Part shown: positions 18,692 through 36,336 of the stretch, piece after piece | Numbering within the stretch: the first letter of the stretch is position 1 | How the letters are laid out: each line of letters starts with the position of its first letter | Notes under the pieces: model-generated | The model's input: only the letters and a program-made list of their open reading frames with translations | Told to the model about the DNA's origin: nothing | The model's database searches: none | Program-made: the position numbers and the translations under genes | Source of the DNA: a virus | DNA length: 38,497 nucleotides | IMG/VR virus record: IMGVR_UViG_3300025704_000053 | Coordinates: 1 to 38,497 of that record | Direction: 5' to 3' (one strand)

Positions 18692-19537
18692 TTAAAGGGT
18701 AATTATAGTATCATCGGGTAGTTCGTCATCTAATGCTTCTAACTGTCCAGCACCTTTTACACCTTCTGCCCAAACCATTTTTTCAAATGGGTCTTGCTCA
18801 CCTGCTTTTACTTTTTCCCACCAAGTTAAATCACCGTTATTTGTGGCTTCTAAGAACCAAGCAATCTTATGAGCAGTATTTACTCTTGCTTGTTGCATAT
18901 TAGGATGACCAAAGTCTGCAGGATCTTCTGGGTTACCTTCCATATACTTTCTATTGCGGAAAGTTTCGTCATCATTATTACCTGTAATATCTGCTCTGTC
19001 ATGAATAAATTTTACATCTATTCTTTCAAAAATACCTAACATATATGCAATATGACTTAGCCATGCATCGTTCTGTGCATTTTGACTTAGGTGTCCCATA
19101 AGTATAAACCAATCCTTAGGAACAATAGGTAATATAGCATAGGGGTGACCGTCGTGGTTGTCATTAGGTGCAAGTAATTTAAATTGTCCTGTATAGGAGT
19201 TTATTACTTCATCCCAATTTTTTGTTTCCATTAAACAATCATCATTCCAAAAGAACAACCAGTCTCCTGATGCATTTCCGGCCAATGTATTTACATATTG
19301 ATGTAAATTAGTATATCCTAACGGCTTAAAGATGTTTGCTTTTGTTTCAACACCTTTTTCTTGCAATATAGGCCCTAGTTCGTCTTTTACATAGGATATG
19401 ACATCAGTGTCATCTTCATCCATGCCTAACATGATTTCTATTTCTTTTGGTTCTTTAACATTATCTAAAAGAGACATTAGACTTGCTTTTAATACTTCTG
19501 TTCTTCCTCTTGTTGGAAGTAATATTGATATTTTCAT
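18692..19537 (-). CDS. Glycosyltransferase family 2-like protein
   Basis: A 281-residue protein opening KISILLPTRGRTEVLKASLMSLL, the GT2 nucleotide-binding strand. WLFFWNDDCLMETKNWDEV supplies the DxD-type motif (NDD at about 97-99). The middle (PYAILPIVPKDWFILMG) and ERIDVKFIHDR complete a GT-A fold. The C-terminal 70 residues are acidic and atypical. Its ATG overlaps the stop of the upstream GT gene by one base; AGGCAGGATA provides the ribosome site. Likely sugar transfer in the cytoplasm of the infected cell. The 81 bases to dexA contain the dexA promoter. Confidence 0.7.
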   Translation of the reverse strand: MKISILLPTRGRTEVLKASLMSLLDNVKEPKEIEIMLGMDEDDTDVISYVKDELGPILQEKGVETKANIFKPLGYTNLHQYVNTLAGNASGDWLFFWNDDCLMETKNWDEVINSYTGQFKLLAPNDNHDGHPYAILPIVPKDWFILMGHLSQNAQNDAWLSHIAYMLGIFERIDVKFIHDRADITGNNDDETFRNRKYMEGNPEDPADFGHPNMQQARVNTAHKIAWFLEATNNGDLTWWEKVKAGEQDPFEKMVWAEGVKGAGQLEALDDELPDDTIITL

Positions 19538-20487
19538 TATCCTGCCTCTTGACCTCTTCTATGATTATTCTCGCCAGTAAACAGTTTCCTAATGTTTCCT
19601 CTGAATGTATAATGTCCAACATGATTAAGTGCTGTTCTAGGATCTAACCAAACATCACCTCCCATTTCTTGCCAACGTCTACAGAATGTATAATCCTCTG
19701 ACAAGTAACGTCTGCTTTCTGGATCAATAATACAATCAAACAATGCATACATAAATGGTTCAAATTTTTGATCTACATTAATGTCATTAACATATTTTGT
19801 ATCTGGGTGTTTATCAAACATTTGCTGTATGACATCTTTCCTTATACACATAAATCCTGTCCCGGCATCTTTTAGTTTAACTAAGTTGTCAACGACCTGG
19901 ACTTGTGGAGTTGGTTTGCCGTCTTTATCTTTTAAGAAATCAAAGTTTACAACATAGTTTGAACTATGTCCTTCGATTGTTTCTGCATCTTCATTCATAT
20001 CCGGATTTCTTGCGGCTCCTAAGATGCTTGTCCAATTAATTGCTTTTTTAGGATATGCACCAACAACAATTGGCTTATCGTATGCAACCATTCTAAGTAT
20101 ATCTTCAGGATTAAACTCAATGTCAGCATCAATAAAAAATAAATGTGTTGCCGCTGTATTTTCCATAAAGAAACTTGTTAATGTGTTTCTGCCTCTAGTA
20201 ATTAAACTTTCATTTGCTAGTGTGCTAACTGTGTATTGAATATTATATTTGTTACACAAAATAACAAATCTCATCATGCTTCTAAAGTATGGTTCTCCCA
20301 TTGCTCCTCCATAACATGGTGTTGCTATAAAGATATGCTTGTTTCTTAATGTAGAAAGAGGTATCTCAACCTTTGAATCTAATAATTGATACAGGCTATC
20401 TTCTTCTGCCGGAGTTACTGCTTGACTTTTCTGTGATGCTGGAGCAGTTGTGTTCTTTGTTGCTGTGGGTTTTTTCTTTTTAGCCAT
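19537..20487 (-). CDS. GT-A glycosyltransferase-like protein with Lys-rich N-terminus
   Basis: A 316-residue protein. Residues 1-28 are a disordered basic tail (MAKKKKPTATKNTTAPASQK...). The catalytic part starts at about 50 (HIFIATPCYGGAMGEPYF), with THLFFIDADIEFNPEDI as the DxD block, DAGTGFMCIRKDV and SEDYTFCRRWQEMGGDVWLDP as acceptor-side motifs, and HVGHYTF giving the metal-coordinating His. This set resembles a GT-A family I recall from T4-like cyanophages. It lies 6 bases after the preceding oxygenase fusion. The basic tail might keep the enzyme on nucleic acid or on a virion partner. Confidence 0.7.
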   Translation of the reverse strand: MAKKKKPTATKNTTAPASQKSQAVTPAEEDSLYQLLDSKVEIPLSTLRNKHIFIATPCYGGAMGEPYFRSMMRFVILCNKYNIQYTVSTLANESLITRGRNTLTSFFMENTAATHLFFIDADIEFNPEDILRMVAYDKPIVVGAYPKKAINWTSILGAARNPDMNEDAETIEGHSSNYVVNFDFLKDKDGKPTPQVQVVDNLVKLKDAGTGFMCIRKDVIQQMFDKHPDTKYVNDINVDQKFEPFMYALFDCIIDPESRRYLSEDYTFCRRWQEMGGDVWLDPRTALNHVGHYTFRGNIRKLFTGENNHRRGQEAG

Positions 20488-20493
20488 TGTTGG

Positions 20494-21630
20494 TTACCTT
20501 GTGTGTCCTAATAATAAATCTGGATCTTCTTCATTGTTTATATATTCGAAAATCGCATTGATATAGTTTAATTCTGAGTCATTGTTTAAGTATATACTCT
20601 CATCAGCAAAAAGTAAATGGGTATCATTACTTAATGCTAAATTAAATAGATAATCTCGCCTTTCTTTGTCTTCAGTTAATCCTAAAATACTTGGCAAAAC
20701 TATGCCAGTTATGTTAGGGTCTTTTATAAAGTCTTCAAGCATTGGTTCCCAATGACAAAAACTTAATTCTAAAGGATAGTCTACTGGCACAATGCCTACG
20801 TCTTTACAAAACTTGTCCATTTGTATGCTTGTGATAAAGAATGGTGTTGTTTTACAAAAACGACTGTTCATGTCAATGTAGTTAATCCATGTTCTACTTG
20901 TGTCTACATTACTTATAGACTGTCTGTAGTTCCTAAATAGTCTAAAGTAAGCACCTGGTCTACGTCTACCATAGTTGCCGCCTTTAACTAAAATTCTTGT
21001 GTCGAAACTCCAACGTGTAATATCTGTATCGTTGTTTACGTTTCCGTGTATGTGACCTTGTTGGAATAACCAACTTTGTCCTGGAGATGTTGTGCAAGGA
21101 ATTGAATGTTCTAAACACAATGCTTGTATCTCTTGATAACTTAATTGTTCATCATAGGTCTTTTGTGTGATCATTCTACTTTCTTCCCATGGAAGTATTT
21201 GCATAGTGTTTGTGCCCCATGCTTCTGTGAGCGGTGTCCAAATACTATACATGCCCGGGCCATGGCCAAACCAAATACCTTGATGAAAGTTTAATGTTCT
21301 ACCATGCTTTGCTTGGTCAGGTATTACCATACGCAAACCAACTACGTCTTGTATCATAAAATCCTCACCGTCTATCTGTGGGGATATAACATCTTCAAAA
21401 AAGTCATCTAACTTTCTTGCAAACTCTTCTGTTTTACATATACGTTGTATGTTCCAGGCAAAGTCGTTTAAATCTCTTGGATCCATTACTTTGTGAGTAG
21501 TTTCTAATGTTTCAATTTGGGGATATTTTTCTTGAACTGCGTCTAAGAAATACTGACGCCAGTTATGTTTTTCTAAATTGTAATTTACAATTTGATTGTC
21601 CCAACGTGGGTCTAATTTATTTACTTCCAT
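20494..21630 (-). CDS. PhyH-type oxygenase domain fused to sporadic-carbohydrate-cluster domain
   Basis: A 378-residue two-domain protein. Residues 90-215 look like a PhyH-type double-stranded beta-helix: NFHQGIWFGHGPGMYSIWTPL, then NTMQILPWEE and HIHGN (H195) ... ITRWSFDTRI (R207). The proximal motif is HQG (116-118) where hydroxylases have HxD. Residues 262-365 (DKFCKDVGIVPVDYPLELS, GIVLPSILGLTEDKERRDYL, LLFADESIYLNND) follow the LIC12192/TIGR04323-type 'sporadic carbohydrate cluster' pattern as I remember it. In bacteria these two are usually separate neighbouring genes in surface-sugar clusters. Overlaps the next upstream oxygenase by 14 bases. Domain call moderate, reaction unknown. Confidence 0.55.
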   Translation of the reverse strand: MEVNKLDPRWDNQIVNYNLEKHNWRQYFLDAVQEKYPQIETLETTHKVMDPRDLNDFAWNIQRICKTEEFARKLDDFFEDVISPQIDGEDFMIQDVVGLRMVIPDQAKHGRTLNFHQGIWFGHGPGMYSIWTPLTEAWGTNTMQILPWEESRMITQKTYDEQLSYQEIQALCLEHSIPCTTSPGQSWLFQQGHIHGNVNNDTDITRWSFDTRILVKGGNYGRRRPGAYFRLFRNYRQSISNVDTSRTWINYIDMNSRFCKTTPFFITSIQMDKFCKDVGIVPVDYPLELSFCHWEPMLEDFIKDPNITGIVLPSILGLTEDKERRDYLFNLALSNDTHLLFADESIYLNNDSELNYINAIFEYINNEEDPDLLLGHTR

Positions 21631-22177
21631 TTCTATAATCCTTTAAGTGCCAATGATTCTTACCTCTGTGAACCTTACCCCATACCGTTGGGGTATCTGT
21701 TTCTATAAAGCCTAAATATAATGTTATTCTAATAACATCATCTGTTGGAGCAATAACTTTATGGTGTTCTCTTGCTCCATCTAATATAACCATTCTATTA
21801 AACTTGTCCTCTACAAACTCTCCGTCTATTTCTATACCTGAGTTATTGTTTGCATGTGGGTTTAAACAAATAATTACATTTAAAAATTTTGTGTCATCTT
21901 TAAGATTAAAGTCTCTATGGCCTTTTAATTCATCTCCACGCCTATATACATTAATATAGTAGCGGTGCAATTTATTTAGGCTTATATCTAAATGTTGTTG
22001 TAGCCAAGTATCAATTTCAAAAATTTCTATAAGTTGCTTTCTACTTATAACAATTTGTGTGTGAACTGCTCCACCTGGAGTTTCCGCACCGGTATAAGAC
22101 AATGTTGCTTCATTTTCGTAATACTCAATCCATTTGTTTTGGACTTCGTTTGACATTACGTTATCAATTATTTTCAA
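21617..22177 (-). CDS. Fe(II)/2-oxoglutarate-dependent oxygenase
   Basis: A 186-residue protein with all ligands of the prolyl-4-hydroxylase-like fold: GHRDFN (H87-x-D89), NVIICLNPHANNNSGIEID as the jelly-roll centre, EHHKVIAPTDDVIRITLYL (H138 or H139, R150). Related proteins are widespread in T4-like marine phages. It starts just after tRNA-Ala (AAGGAAG ribosome site, ATG 22177) and overlaps the oxygenase fusion downstream, so the two may act in the same pathway. Substrate unknown; protein, nucleic-acid base or sugar modification are all possible. Confidence 0.8.
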   Translation of the reverse strand: MKIIDNVMSNEVQNKWIEYYENEATLSYTGAETPGGAVHTQIVISRKQLIEIFEIDTWLQQHLDISLNKLHRYYINVYRRGDELKGHRDFNLKDDTKFLNVIICLNPHANNNSGIEIDGEFVEDKFNRMVILDGAREHHKVIAPTDDVIRITLYLGFIETDTPTVWGKVHRGKNHWHLKDYRNGSK

Positions 22178-24576: not shown

Positions 24577-25614
24577 TTAGAAGTCAAAATGGAATCCGTT
24601 AACACATTGGCTGTTAGATTTTTTTATTGCATCTTCAAAACGTTTAGGCAGTTGTTTTGTTGCATCATCGAATTTGAGTTTGAATCTAAAACTTTCTGTT
24701 TTAGTTTTATATGATTGCATAGGTTCGCGATACATTTTGTCATACTGATTATATATTCCGGATTGAATAGCAAGAACTTTTTTTAGCCTTTCAAATCCGC
24801 CTACTTTCATCAAAGTATCAACGTCTCCTGGAAGTATAGAATTCCATACTGCTTTTTTAAATTCTAACATTTCTCTAAACTGTGGCTCGTCTGTGCTGTA
24901 AATAAGGTGTATTTGTTGCTCTTTAACTATGTTTATTTGTTGCTCTAGTATTTGATATACTGCTTGTGGAGAACAATAAGATATGTTTTTAATTAACTGT
25001 ATGCCTTTGTTTTCACAAATATCATGATACGGTTTAATAGTTCCTATAATTGAATCTGGTGTATCCATATTCAAGTAATCTAACCCAACAAATGCACTTG
25101 GATAGATGTCTGATACTCCTCGTCTGCCTTCCCCATAAAGCAAGTATGGCATATCGCCGCCCATTACCAGTTTGCTATTAGAAGGTATATGTCTGTCTAT
25201 AAATTCTAAATGCATTGCTACTTGTGGACTAGAAACACCTAACTTTCTACCCCACTTCATATGATGATTGCCATCATAAAATTCTTTTAAATCAAAATCT
25301 ATAATTTCTAAATCAAGACTAAATTTTTTTGCTACTTCTTGAGCATATATTACATCGTCAGTATTTACAACACCGCCTTTCCAAGTTGTTTTATAAGTAA
25401 TCGGATTAAATTTTATGTTAAAATGTTGAAGCAGTCTTAACATAAATTGACTGTCTGAGCCCCCACTTAACATTAAGGTGCATCCATCAAAGTTTTTTAA
25501 CTCGTTATAATATCTATCTAATAATGTTAAATTATCGTCTGGTTTCTGTATAGTATAGACACACATGTGGTCCTGTAATAAAACAGAATTAGGATGTCCT
25601 AAAGCAAAATTCAT
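24577..25614 (-). CDS. Asparagine-synthase-like PP-loop protein
   Basis: A 345-residue protein. GCTLMLSGGSDSQFMLRLL at about 44-62 is the SGGxDS PP-loop of N-type ATP pyrophosphatases; KLVMGGDMPYLLYGEGRRG supplies the second ATP-site block. This is the asparagine synthase C-terminal fold without the N-terminal glutaminase domain. Such stand-alone enzymes adenylate a carboxylate or a nucleic-acid base and then add ammonia or a thiol. The C-terminus is basic and unassigned. It is divergent from the subtilase, and the 80 bases between carry two plus-strand late boxes. Start ATG 25614 without a clear ribosome site. Confidence 0.65.
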   Translation of the reverse strand: MNFALGHPNSVLLQDHMCVYTIQKPDDNLTLLDRYYNELKNFDGCTLMLSGGSDSQFMLRLLQHFNIKFNPITYKTTWKGGVVNTDDVIYAQEVAKKFSLDLEIIDFDLKEFYDGNHHMKWGRKLGVSSPQVAMHLEFIDRHIPSNSKLVMGGDMPYLLYGEGRRGVSDIYPSAFVGLDYLNMDTPDSIIGTIKPYHDICENKGIQLIKNISYCSPQAVYQILEQQINIVKEQQIHLIYSTDEPQFREMLEFKKAVWNSILPGDVDTLMKVGGFERLKKVLAIQSGIYNQYDKMYREPMQSYKTKTESFRFKLKFDDATKQLPKRFEDAIKKSNSQCVNGFHFDF

Positions 25615-27340: not shown

Positions 27341-28255
27341 ATGAACTTAATAATTGATACAACAACAGATTCGATAGTTTTTAATCCTTTGTCTGCTCAA
27401 GGACAATGGGTAAACCATAGATTTGGCAAACGTAAAGTTGATTATCAACTTGAATCAAATTCTTTAATAGATTATATTTCTACTTTGGATGACATAGATC
27501 ATGTAGATTTTATCTCAGTATTTGGCGATCCAATGTGTTATACAGACATAGAAAAAGTTGTAAAGTTTTTAACAAATAGTCACATATCCTCTACAATAGT
27601 TACATATGGCATGGGTGATACAATGCTATACGAAAACCTAAGCAATTTAGGTGCTTACTTTGTTTTTAAAACAACGGGAATAGTTGACAAAGTATTTCTA
27701 AATACAGACTGGCATATTCTACAAGATAATTTAAATGCAGTCAAAAATAAACAAATACAGTTTTATAAGTTTAAGCATAATAAAACAGACTTAAAACTTA
27801 TAAACGAAATGTTTGAAAACGTTTTTGAATACCATGGTGACTGTATTGCCGGAGACATGAGTAATATAATCAATGAAGATGGCAAATGGTTATACGATAT
27901 ACATAAAGAAGATTCAAATAAAGTTACCCTAGAAAAAACTACACAAGGTTATCATTATCTTAAGCATTTTGTTAAGAAAGTTAAAGGTAAGAGTATATTA
28001 GACAACCCATTAAATTTAATTTTACCTAATGCACAAATGTTTGAAATGCCACGTGAAGATGACAGATATCTTTCTGTAAGTGGCCATCTTTTTAGTAACT
28101 ACGAAGAAATGCAAATATTTTCAAATGCATTATGTGATGACTGGTCATTACAATCTTTTGATTTGCGTTTTGAGTATGAAAAGAAAGTATATTATGTTCT
28201 GTCTAAAATGATAGGAAGAAAGTTAGACTGTATCAACAGCGGTCTTAGTAATTGA
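27341..28255 (+). CDS. Radical-SAM-like protein lacking the cluster cysteines
   Basis: A 304-residue protein. VDFISVFGDPMCYTDIEKVVKFL (about 55-77), STIVTYGMGD and YFVFKTTGIVDKVFLNTDWHILQDNL mirror the radical SAM barrel order (GGEP strand, 'TNG' strand, then the '..G....h....g.w..i..nl' region), yet there is no CxxxCxxC near the N-terminus. It looks like a non-catalytic homologue. The ATG follows the terminator T-run directly, without a ribosome site. Its 3' end overlaps the true radical SAM gene by 33 bases in convergent orientation. Fold assignment is by pattern only. Confidence 0.4.
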   Translation: MNLIIDTTTDSIVFNPLSAQGQWVNHRFGKRKVDYQLESNSLIDYISTLDDIDHVDFISVFGDPMCYTDIEKVVKFLTNSHISSTIVTYGMGDTMLYENLSNLGAYFVFKTTGIVDKVFLNTDWHILQDNLNAVKNKQIQFYKFKHNKTDLKLINEMFENVFEYHGDCIAGDMSNIINEDGKWLYDIHKEDSNKVTLEKTTQGYHYLKHFVKKVKGKSILDNPLNLILPNAQMFEMPREDDRYLSVSGHLFSNYEEMQIFSNALCDDWSLQSFDLRFEYEKKVYYVLSKMIGRKLDCINSGLSN

Positions 28256-29248
28256 AATATCACTTAGATTATTACAATTAGTTATTGGACAAACAAAGCC
28301 TACTTCAGGCAAGTTCCATTCAGCATCTGATATGTTGCCAAAATTCATTGCACCACACCAACTGCTATACATATCACCATTAGCATCTATGTTTAAACTT
28401 TCAAATCCTAAATGACATCTCATGCCGTAGAACTGATTTAATCCTTCATTTATAATCTGATGATTTTGCACATACCTAGCAGTTCCATCATCATATAAAA
28501 ACTCTGTCATATATGTTTTAGGATCAGGCGCATTTCTCTGCACGAAGTTTTCTTGAGATTGCACACTTTCTTGCGGCTTAATGCCTGGTCTACTTAACAC
28601 TTCCAACTCACTGTTAGTGTATTCCCAATATGTTTCCTGCTTACTACGAGCGCCTAGTAACTTCTTATACATGGTTTTAACACATATACTAACACTATCA
28701 TACCTATTACGATTACAGTCTTTAAACAAGCCTCTAATCTCTTCTACTAACACGCCTAATTCGTCGACTGTGCCGCCTATACCGGCAATGTTGATATCTA
28801 CATGCACAAAGTCCTTAATTTCGTTTAAAACCGCTTTAAAATGCTCTTTATCTTGACTTAAAGGATGGTATGTGTATACAATCGAGTCTAAGTAATACTT
28901 TGCTTTAGACCACCAATTAACTGTTCTGCCGCCATTTGTAAACACTAACGATCTTGATCCGCTTTCTCGTATAGTTCGTATAATGTCTTCAAATCCAGGT
29001 ATTACAGTTACTTCTCCCCCTATTAATTCATAGTCTAAGACTTTGTTTAAGGTCTTGTAGTGTGTGTCTAGGCGTTTTATAGTGTCAATGTATACCTCTG
29101 TATTAAACCAAGGTTTAGAGCCATCGTGTAGTATCGGTGGACAATATTCACACTGATAATTGCATGGATTTCCCATGTTCCATTGAACTCTTAGTGTATT
29201 ATTTGTGCTTCTGGCGTGTGGGCCTCTTACAGATAGTAATTTAGCCAC
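28223..29248 (-). CDS. Radical SAM enzyme with C-terminal Cys-rich domain
   Basis: A 341-residue protein. NPCNYQCEYCPP holds C29-x3-C33-x2-C36, the 4Fe-4S/SAM motif; YELIGGEVTVIPGF is the GGE strand, and SLVFTNGGRTV the next. The C-terminus has five more Cys (MRCHLG, SSWCGAMNFGN, FVCPITNCNN), a SPASM/Twitch-like auxiliary cluster region typical of peptide- or protein-modifying radical SAM enzymes. ATG 29248 is 2 bases after the PAAR stop. Similar enzymes exist in marine phages; the substrate is unknown. A PAAR or other virion protein neighbour could be a target (inference). Confidence 0.85.
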   Translation of the reverse strand: MAKLLSVRGPHARSTNNTLRVQWNMGNPCNYQCEYCPPILHDGSKPWFNTEVYIDTIKRLDTHYKTLNKVLDYELIGGEVTVIPGFEDIIRTIRESGSRSLVFTNGGRTVNWWSKAKYYLDSIVYTYHPLSQDKEHFKAVLNEIKDFVHVDINIAGIGGTVDELGVLVEEIRGLFKDCNRNRYDSVSICVKTMYKKLLGARSKQETYWEYTNSELEVLSRPGIKPQESVQSQENFVQRNAPDPKTYMTEFLYDDGTARYVQNHQIINEGLNQFYGMRCHLGFESLNIDANGDMYSSWCGAMNFGNISDAEWNLPEVGFVCPITNCNNLSDISITKTAVDTV

Positions 29249-33795: not shown

Positions 33796-36336
33796 TTAAG
33801 ATTTCCACTTACGAACGATGTAATTCATCGTTACGGAAGATGCAGGACTTAAAGTGTTGTTTGCCCTAAGGTCAAACTTGTCTGTTCCTGTTACATAATT
33901 AACATAAAGATCTACGTTACCAACTGATATATTTTGTTTGCTATCTGAATATTGATCGTTTATATATGCTACTTGCTGATCTTTATCTGCACCAAACATT
34001 ACTGAACCTATACGACTGTAATTGATAGATGTATTAGAATTAGTATCTTTCATACTGTATTCCACGAAGAATGTATTATATGCTTCAGGGTCAAGGTTTG
34101 TTAGAATGTTATTACCTGTGCCGTTTGGTATTGCAATAGATTCAGGACTTGCATAGGCTGTTGTAGCCTCACCGGCTTCTAATGCATCTCTTGTAAGTAG
34201 TTCTATGTTGGTTTTAAGATTAAGTAACCCTTTATTATAACCAGTTAATCCTGACTGTTGACTTGTAAAGTATATGTTGTTACATATTTCTGCAAAGTCT
34301 CTTGCCTCTTCGCGTGAACCAAATGTTGCTTCTTTTAAATCTTCGTCGATTGTTAAACTGTAGTTTGTAAAAGTTACAGTAGAACCACCAACAGTTGAAT
34401 TTGAAAATATGCCGGATGCTCCGCCACCTACATATACATTTTTAAAGTAATTAAATCTTGGTTCTTTTGCAAATGCACCAAACAACCAATCTTCTAATTT
34501 TGCTTTTATAGTAGAATCTGTTTTATCATAATTTCCTACTGTTAAACCTAACTTATTTTGCGTAAACGCAGAGTCTGAATGTATTCTAAATCCTTCATAC
34601 CATTCTGGTTGCTTTTGGAATGATTCAGCATGTGTTAAGTATAACTGATTGTCGGAGTTTGGAACTTTGTTTAGTTTAGGCCACTTGTTAAGACCATTCA
34701 CTCTTGCTACAACTGAACCTACATCTGTTCCACTTGTAATTGTTATGTTTGATAAATCTGTTGAAATTACAGGAGTTATCGAAGTAGTTCCGTTTACTAA
34801 TACAGGTGTAATTGTTAATGCTTGATTGCCTGATGTAACTGCTGAAGATGTAGTAACTGAGAATGCGTTTGCACTTGCTTCACAATTACTTGTAACAGCC
34901 ATCGACGAACTAAATTTTCCAAAAGAAGCATCATCTACATTAACATTTTCTGTTTTATCAAATCCATGGTTTACAGAATAAACTATTACGTTACTATTAC
35001 TGTTGCCACCATGTGTTATAAACAAGTTACCTGCACCTATACTTGCTCCTGCTGTTAATCCATTTACTGTAACACTTTTAGTTGCAGGTGTTACTGCTGT
35101 AACAACACCGTTATCTATTTTTGCGTTACTTGAATTATTATTTAAGAATGTTACACCGTCACCTACTGATATTAGATCTGAGTCTTGAACTGTCATTGAT
35201 ATTGTATCAGCATTACCACTATCTTTTGACGTTATAGACCTTGTGTAAGAGGCTGTATTGCTTGGTATAGCAACTGTAAAATTTGTAGAACCATTTACTG
35301 CAACTACCTGCATAACTTTATTATTAATCCAGCCTGTGCCGCCTGATAAGTATGCATAGTTTGTTGGAGCACTTACACTATAACTTTTAATTGTTGGATC
35401 TGCTGTAATTACAACATTACTTCCACTTACAGTAAATGCTTTTGATGTTTCTATGTCGCTGTTTCTACTTACAAAAAGTTTTCCTAATGTTGGACTTGCA
35501 TATGAAATTGTTCCTGGTGTGTATTTAATATCTGTCGACGGGGTTATATGTTTACCAAATTCTAATCCAATATAACCTACACCAGTTGAAGGTGCTACTC
35601 TGATGTTTTTACTGTTTAATTGTCTATAACTTGGAATCTGTTGCCCTGTTAAGTTTGTCCATAAAGTAGCATCGTTATAAAAACTTGTTACACCTGTTAC
35701 ATAATTACCAACGTCAGTATCAGGTGATGTTTTAGATAATGCAGTAATTAATGTTGCATTACCGTAATATGTTAAACCAATTTCTTCAGTTGTTAGCGGT
35801 GCTGATCTAAAACCTAAATTTTGTGAATCACTTGCATTCGTTCCACCTTGCAAGAATGCATAATCTTTGTCTGCGGCTACACTAGCAACGGAACTTGTTA
35901 AGTCGTCGCCTGTTAAGATGACTCCGTCTCTAGTAACGTTTATATCGGTAGATGTAAATTTTTCGTTTGTATCTAAATTAGTAAATACTGTTGCACTTGC
36001 TTTAAATACGTCACTGCCTATCCAAGATGTAACTTTATTAATGCTATTCCATGTAGCATCTCCTTTGGCATAAAATTTACCTGGAACTTCAAATTTAATT
36101 ATTTGTAAATTAGCAATATTTCTTGTGTAGTTAATAGACGATGGTGTTTTTTCAAACTGTGCAACTTTATTAAGTCCAGAGTTGACAAGTAGGTCGGTGT
36201 CGCCGCCTATATAAATTTGTCTTGTATCTGTTGCAAAACCAATCTCCCCTGATCGTAAAGGTTTTGGAAGATCCTGCTTTAGACCACGTCTATTCTGGAT
36301 CCTTGAAATAATTACTGCGTTGTTGCTCGTAGCCAT
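33796..36336 (-). CDS. Tail-fibre-like protein with Mtd-type N-terminus
   Basis: An 846-residue, Cys-poor, Ser/Thr/Asn-rich protein. Residues 8-48 (IISRIQNRRGLKQDLPKPLRSGEIGFATDTRQIYIGGDTD) match the short N-terminal attachment domain of phage tropism determinants and many fibre proteins ('R.G....L..GE.G...DT...Y.G'). The centre is a series of beta-rich repeats with GTTSITPV, SVTVNGLTAG and similar, and the end has a different module (YFTSQQSGLTGYNKGLLNLKTNIELL, then DLYVNYVTGTDKFDLRANN). It is read from a leadered late box at 36362 with AGGAGA. Likely receptor-binding; exact position in the virion not known. Confidence 0.75.
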   Translation of the reverse strand: MATSNNAVIISRIQNRRGLKQDLPKPLRSGEIGFATDTRQIYIGGDTDLLVNSGLNKVAQFEKTPSSINYTRNIANLQIIKFEVPGKFYAKGDATWNSINKVTSWIGSDVFKASATVFTNLDTNEKFTSTDINVTRDGVILTGDDLTSSVASVAADKDYAFLQGGTNASDSQNLGFRSAPLTTEEIGLTYYGNATLITALSKTSPDTDVGNYVTGVTSFYNDATLWTNLTGQQIPSYRQLNSKNIRVAPSTGVGYIGLEFGKHITPSTDIKYTPGTISYASPTLGKLFVSRNSDIETSKAFTVSGSNVVITADPTIKSYSVSAPTNYAYLSGGTGWINNKVMQVVAVNGSTNFTVAIPSNTASYTRSITSKDSGNADTISMTVQDSDLISVGDGVTFLNNNSSNAKIDNGVVTAVTPATKSVTVNGLTAGASIGAGNLFITHGGNSNSNVIVYSVNHGFDKTENVNVDDASFGKFSSSMAVTSNCEASANAFSVTTSSAVTSGNQALTITPVLVNGTTSITPVISTDLSNITITSGTDVGSVVARVNGLNKWPKLNKVPNSDNQLYLTHAESFQKQPEWYEGFRIHSDSAFTQNKLGLTVGNYDKTDSTIKAKLEDWLFGAFAKEPRFNYFKNVYVGGGASGIFSNSTVGGSTVTFTNYSLTIDEDLKEATFGSREEARDFAEICNNIYFTSQQSGLTGYNKGLLNLKTNIELLTRDALEAGEATTAYASPESIAIPNGTGNNILTNLDPEAYNTFFVEYSMKDTNSNTSINYSRIGSVMFGADKDQQVAYINDQYSDSKQNISVGNVDLYVNYVTGTDKFDLRANNTLSPASSVTMNYIVRKWKS

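Follow-up and report, generated by a model that had tools for sequence, protein, structure and literature searches.

A marine virus family fuses a PhyH-type oxygenase domain, with glycine at the usual iron-binding aspartate, to a LIC12192-like domain: a candidate sugar halogenase

The DNA analyzed here, referred to as the window, is a 38,497-nucleotide stretch of the IMG/VR virus record IMGVR_UViG_3300025704_000053 (positions 1 to 38,497). Examination of its open reading frames revealed a 378-residue ORF with an ATG start, the bounds of which are exactly those given in an earlier sequence-only reading; its strand, which that reading had left out, is minus. The ORF encodes two domains on one chain and is flanked by a second oxygenase gene and by two glycosyltransferase-like genes:

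18692 to 19537, minus strand: glycosyltransferase family 2-like gene, overlapping the end of the gene at 19537-20487
19537 to 20487, minus strand: glycosyltransferase-like gene downstream of the fusion (phrog_1574; weak Anp1/GT matches)
20494 to 21630, minus strand: fused gene, 378 amino acids, stop codon at 20494-20496
20497 to 20895, minus strand: C-terminal LIC12192/TIGR04323-like domain (residues 246-378), with a predicted serine-recombinase-like fold without the catalytic Ser/Arg
20917 to 21519, minus strand: N-terminal PhyH-type Fe(II)/2-oxoglutarate (2OG) oxygenase domain (residues 38-238), TIGR04324-like
21617 to 22177, minus strand: second, unrelated 2OG-Fe(II) oxygenase gene (2OG-FeII_Oxy_3-like), upstream, overlapping the start of the fusion by 14 nt

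Comparison with NCBIfam models matched residues 38-238 to TIGR04324 (sporadic-carbohydrate-cluster 2OG-Fe(II) oxygenase; E = 6e-22, 78.4 bits) and residues 297-363 to TIGR04323 (LIC12192; E = 1.8e-6, 27.9 bits), in agreement with the two-domain fusion that had been proposed. Both scores lie under the curated cut-offs (150 bits for TIGR04324 and 55 bits for TIGR04323), and the N-terminal half is homologous to TIGR04324 yet outside the family as curated. No match to the window protein was found in Pfam or PHROGs. When 24 diverse viral members were scanned, all of them matched both NCBIfam families, with best E-values of 5.1e-27 and 2.1e-17, respectively.

The viral members were gathered by scanning IMG/VR with the window protein and then with progressively more distant members as queries. 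The sequence-only reading had suggested a search for the same fusion in marine phages, and this analysis revealed a whole marine-virus family of one-chain fusions, which includes tandem paralogues and members with an HKD motif. Subfamily A, to which the window protein belongs, comprises proteins 69-99% identical to it; subfamily B is about 44% identical, and a further, more distant viral group is 36-39% identical. Eight contigs (L017-L024) carry an A and a B copy in tandem with a 4-nt overlap. Where the contig is long enough, these tandems lie near sufC/sufD/sufS, a redoxin gene and a GNAT gene, and a Stf0-sulfotransferase-like gene is located downstream. Neither subfamily was found among 50,697 records of isolate phages; the carriers are a widespread, uncultured marine virus group.

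The residues of the oxygenase domain on which its predicted chemistry depends are as follows:

21277 to 21285, minus strand: H116-Q117-G118, proximal iron motif by alignment, with Gly replacing the triad Asp
21046 to 21048, minus strand: H195, distal histidine ligand of the iron, unchanged throughout the viral and bacterial members
21013 to 21015, minus strand: R206, expected 2OG-binding arginine 11 residues past the distal His, invariant (role by PhyH/PtlH homology)
21001 to 21003, minus strand: D210, invariant in the viral family, aligned with a PtlH Asp that is not an iron ligand

The replacement of HxD by HQG, pointed out in the window protein beforehand, is a conserved substitution across the viral fusions, with HQG in 44 non-redundant sequences and HKD in two (L139 and L140). 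The motif recurs on dozens of independent contigs and its codons vary synonymously only (CAA/CAG and GGT/GGC); chance and assembly error were therefore ruled out. G118 is retained across viral subfamilies down to about 40% identity through this synonymous codon change. The same column is Asp in all 82 TIGR04324-type proteins that were collected, 81 of them cellular and one on a virus contig, and loss of the Asp is therefore specific to the viral fusion. H116, H195, R206 and R212 are invariant in the viral and bacterial groups alike.

A downstream Asp or Glu could in principle complete the iron triad. D210, the sole invariant acid near the 2OG-binding strand of the viral fusions, was considered as such a replacement and rejected: PtlH has an equivalent Asp besides its triad Asp, and the viral HKD members have D210 too. 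Profile alignment placed the viral HQG opposite HQD of PtlH and the viral RWSMDxR opposite RMSMDTR, which is consistent with D210 being an ordinary residue of the PhyH-type fold. No other plausible acid appears to complete the triad, an argument made from sequence.

The bacterial proteins were retrieved by scanning 84,980 species genomes, which revealed 80 loci with a TIGR04324-type gene in Alpha-, Beta- and Gammaproteobacteria, cyanobacteria, Actinomycetota, Myxococcales and others, with SAR11 well represented; these loci, a second copy at one of them and the protein on virus contig L117 make up the set of 82. The query was a TIGR04324-like consensus, which scores 206 bits against the curated model. 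Retrieval was partly biased towards HSD, since 24 of the 82 proteins carry the exact HSD-containing pattern; this bias is limited, because the 56 proteins that could be retrieved only by a motif-free search pattern all read HxD. At 57 loci the oxygenase has a LIC12192 ORF as its neighbor (E < 0.001 against the viral C-domain profile), and in 37 pairs the LIC12192 gene directly follows the oxygenase with a 4-nt overlap. Split, adjacent genes had been anticipated in SAR11, where they indeed occur, as they do in many other bacteria. Extra divergent SAR11 pairs read HxD as well; one of them is a second pair in the SAR11 strain HIMB114 (L187, 12681-13863; motif HSD), whose C protein outscores that of the first pair against the viral profile. 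Some SAR11 LIC12192 domains carry a C-terminal methyltransferase-like fusion (L109 8411-9490, L093 8420-9469 and L071 8414-9475), a domain encoded elsewhere by a separate gene (for example, L048 8811-9476). Matches on an Aminobacter plasmid were examined as a further instance of the pair and turned out to be distant oxygenases.

No fused cellular copy was present among the loci of the 84,980-genome scan. A cellular origin of the fusion was also rejected for the Pelagibacteraceae family, in which 23 of 297 genomes carry a match and none has both domains in a single open frame. BLAST of the window protein (E <= 1e-15) against 385, 386 and 369 further genomes returned one N-domain match only, the empty results being without a positive control. 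In a literature search that was not exhaustive, no paper naming LIC12192 or the sporadic carbohydrate cluster was identified, and the bacterial relatives are functionally uncharacterized as far as we found.

Two viral members carry the canonical motif, and a third copy begins with it:

L139, 517 to 1611: viral fusion with a canonical HxD motif (HKDEW), nesting within the HQG members
L140, 6001 to 7095: viral fusion with a canonical HxD motif (HKDEW), nesting within the HQG members
L017, 2057 to 3150: interrupted B copy that begins HKDE (frameshift or assembly error)

In a tree with a bacterial outgroup, the HKD pair sits inside subfamily B with moderate support (88/99 for B, and 83/87 and 86/88 within it), and no bootstrap tree placed the HQG members as one side of a branch. 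In a viral-only tree built with the motif columns removed, the HKD proteins again fell among B members (clade support 93/96). This nesting suggests an Asp reversal. One loss of the Asp followed by one regain would be the simplest reading, with repeated losses possible; because a very long branch separates the viral clade from the bacterial one, the position of the root in the viral family is uncertain.

Loss of a metal ligand raises the possibility that the fusion is catalytically silent or regulatory, its barrel binding 2OG or a sugar or acting as a scaffold, with the tandem A and B proteins perhaps forming a complex. Besides the missing ligand and the tandem paralogues, the alteration in viruses of E127, K141, K214 and mostly R198 (window numbering), which are strongly conserved in bacteria, speaks for this. 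Several observations speak against it. H116, H195 and R206 never vary in the viral family, in which only about 14% of columns are invariant; the regain of HxD by two members within the HQG tree would be easier if the site were still used; and both copies in the A/B tandems lack the Asp (except in L017), so that neither stands out as the active member of a pair in which the other is dead. Analysis of dN/dS within the viral subfamilies gave values of 0.03-0.13, which is evidence that the protein is maintained, though not of catalysis in particular. Because the distal His and the 2OG-binding Arg do not vary and purifying selection is strong, the gene is unlikely to be a dead relic. Taken together, we regard a silent member as improbable and consider that the fusion is quite probably an active two-histidine Fe/2OG enzyme.

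An AF2 model was built from 55 sequences (pLDDT 93.7, pTM 0.89) and compared with the PDB by Foldseek. The closest match was the CurA halogenase domain (E = 1e-7), followed by ThoJ, the proline hydroxylase H11, GriE, EctD, SyrB2 and PtlH; E-values for CurA Hal, EctD, SyrB2, PtlH and PhyH ranged from 1e-7 to 1e-5. TM-scores were modest (0.3-0.5; target-normalized 0.4-0.5), with the hydroxylases PtlH and GriE reaching 0.51. A profile search also matched PtlH (E = 0.0026) and human PhyH. The model and these matches support the PhyH-type fold expected of this half, and a different fold, which would have undone the initial proposal, was not predicted. The position of CurA among the top E-values, with SyrB2 close behind, counts for a halogenase, and the TM-scores of PtlH and GriE, which equal or beat those of the halogenases, count against one. 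Because halogenases (CurA, SyrB2) and hydroxylases (PtlH, GriE) alike are among its neighbors, the predicted fold does not settle the chemistry.

The C-terminal half had been likened to LIC12192, and alignment of the bacterial LIC12192 and viral fusion profiles by hhalign revealed homology over residues 258-364 (probability 98.7%, E = 1.5e-16). Residues 246-378 were also modeled on their own (pLDDT 85.5), and this model was searched against the PDB; the ten top-ranked entries consisted entirely of serine recombinases and annotated relatives (best E = 1.1e-3, TM up to about 0.6), one of the ten being named only 'putative DNA-binding protein'. When viral structures were searched with the full-length model, a serine recombinase and a resolvase were among the matches, in line with weak Pfam matches to Pox_F16 and Resolvase. 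Sequence support for this likeness is modest: hhalign to serine recombinases gave a probability of 73% with the combined full C-domain alignment versus 16% with bacterial LIC12192 alone. In the aligned register the catalytic residues are not kept, as the Arg68 and Arg71 columns hold other residues and the viral form has no equivalent of Ser10. The modeled C domain is probably a non-catalytic partner that has a recombinase-like fold but serves another purpose than recombination. In fold, the uncharacterized LIC12192/TIGR04323 family as a whole seems to resemble serine-recombinase catalytic domains, while lacking their catalytic residues, which is a first structural idea for this family.

The genomic setting was expected to be sugar-related, and this was supported on both the bacterial and the viral side. 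The bacterial pairs neighbor a PfkB/cytidylyltransferase fusion, an NAD epimerase, transketolase halves and a methyltransferase. In 23 of 32 related contigs the viral A copy is followed by a glycosyltransferase-like gene, which in turn usually precedes another one, and B copies adjoin cytidylyltransferase or GDP-mannose-dehydratase-like epimerase genes, or SufCDS, redoxin, GNAT and tail-fiber-like genes. The upstream oxygenase gene at 21617-22177 was found only in the window and in the near-identical contig L002; a small 2OG-FeII_Oxy_3-like oxygenase gene lies next to the fusion both here and at L161:6225-6755, the two arrangements being unrelated. Elsewhere in the window, an 846-residue protein (33796-36336) weakly matches the Major tropism determinant N-terminal domain, which suggests a tail-fiber or receptor-binding protein. 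A radical-SAM protein (28223-29248) and a PP-loop (Asn synthase/QueC-like) protein (24577-25614) are possibly involved in nucleoside or peptide modification.

This gene context points to a sugar as the substrate of the viral fusion. Phages also use 2OG oxygenases and sugar transferases for DNA hypermodification, the halogenase family AdaV acts on nucleotides, and the window carries ribonucleotide reductase genes, all of which would fit a nucleotide, a DNA base or a phage or host protein as the substrate under any of the chemistries discussed here. Such a substrate seems unlikely to us, given that the bacterial pairs sit within sugar and cell-surface clusters and that the viral neighbors include a cytidylyltransferase, an epimerase and a tail-fiber-like gene family.

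We propose that the fusion would be a viral one-chain form of the bacterial SpoChoClust_2 and SpoChoClust_1 pair that chlorinates a sugar, a reading to which we give a probability of about 0.4 and in which the use of iron, 2OG and halide and the substrate are each predicted. Iron would be held by H116 and H195 alone and 2OG by R206, with the serine-recombinase-like C domain as the putative non-catalytic partner. Because position 118 is without a carboxylate, the open iron site would most likely take up an anion, for which we chose chloride. Reaction of 2OG with O2 would yield a chloro-iron(IV)-oxo species that would abstract hydrogen from a sugar or nucleotide-sugar carbon, and chlorine would rebound onto that carbon. 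The adjoining glycosyltransferases may then pass the modified sugar to a virion or host-surface glycan.

Replacement of the triad Asp by HXG/A is a recognized halogenase signature (PMC11186838), and a D-to-G change was the mechanism-switching step in the evolution of plant DAH (PMC12346261). The window protein has HXG in place of HXD/E and keeps the distal His, as in these enzymes; no match to the chlorinating-enzyme model TIGR01762 (NCBIfam) was detected at E up to 1. The two-histidine site could also serve oxygenation, with water, 2OG or substrate filling the open position and the enzyme hydroxylating, epimerizing or desaturating the same sugar. AspH has an HXG iron site yet hydroxylates, and FIH retains some activity after an Asp-to-Gly change (PMC10947486). 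The structural neighbors PtlH, GriE, EctD, H11 and the epimerase SnoN are in line with this, as is the genomic setting that the HKD relatives share with HQG members, which suggests interchangeable chemistry. Natural HXG hydroxylases are, however, rarer in the literature consulted than HXG/A halogenases, and unchanged chemistry would leave the long retention of Gly over Asp unexplained; we consider oxygenation without halogenation a serious but doubtful alternative. The full form of the preferred reading, a virus-encoded non-heme iron/2OG sugar halogenase with a fused recombinase-fold partner, in a family whose iron-site acid disappeared once and returned one or more times, is rather unlikely to hold in every part.

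Should the fusion halogenate, viruses would possess an iron-dependent halogenase, and one that acts on carbohydrates, in an abundant marine setting where chloride is plentiful, and hydroxylase and halogenase states could be compared among natural relatives. Whatever the chemistry, the Asp/Gly switch is testable, since HQG and HKD enzymes that share 56-66% identity occur naturally as close relatives in the family. Flavin-dependent viral halogenases have been described, and a non-exhaustive literature search identified no iron-dependent one. The cyanophage enzyme VirX1 likewise is a halogenase encoded by a marine phage (PMC8407142), but it is flavin-dependent and unrelated, whereas the viral fusion, if a halogenase, would be Fe/2OG-dependent. 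The Fe(II)/2OG halogenases SyrB2, CurA Hal, BesD, AdaV and DAH have HXG/A, the distal His and the 2OG Arg position in common with the fusion, and SyrB2 and CurA its PhyH-like fold; the fusion differs in its lack of a TIGR01762 match, its extra unrelated domain, its sugar context, its viral origin and its putative activity. AspH shares the HXG...H iron site (PMC10947486) but belongs to another subfamily and acts on EGF-like domains.

The closest relatives are the two bacterial families. TIGR04324 (SpoChoClust_2) has in common with the viral N half about 200 homologous residues, the distal His, the 2OG Arg and an HGN..N..R..S..R signature; the viral form is about 22% identical and fused, reads HQG instead of HxD, and has a two-residue insertion (109-110) before the motif and a glycine-rich loop after it. 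TIGR04323 (SpoChoClust_1, LIC12192) is homologous to the viral C half and is encoded directly after the oxygenase in bacteria, whereas it is fused in viruses, where the bacterial SRPFxGERxPQHxQN stretch is not conserved. The fusion implies that SpoChoClust_1 and SpoChoClust_2 act as one unit. Serine recombinase catalytic domains supplied the ten best PDB matches of the viral C domain; unlike them, it has neither equivalents of Ser10, Arg68 and Arg71 nor a DNA-binding domain and would work beside an oxygenase, and poxvirus F16 is a precedent for an inactivated serine recombinase. The superfamily and the domain pair are known, and the fused architecture and the iron site are new.
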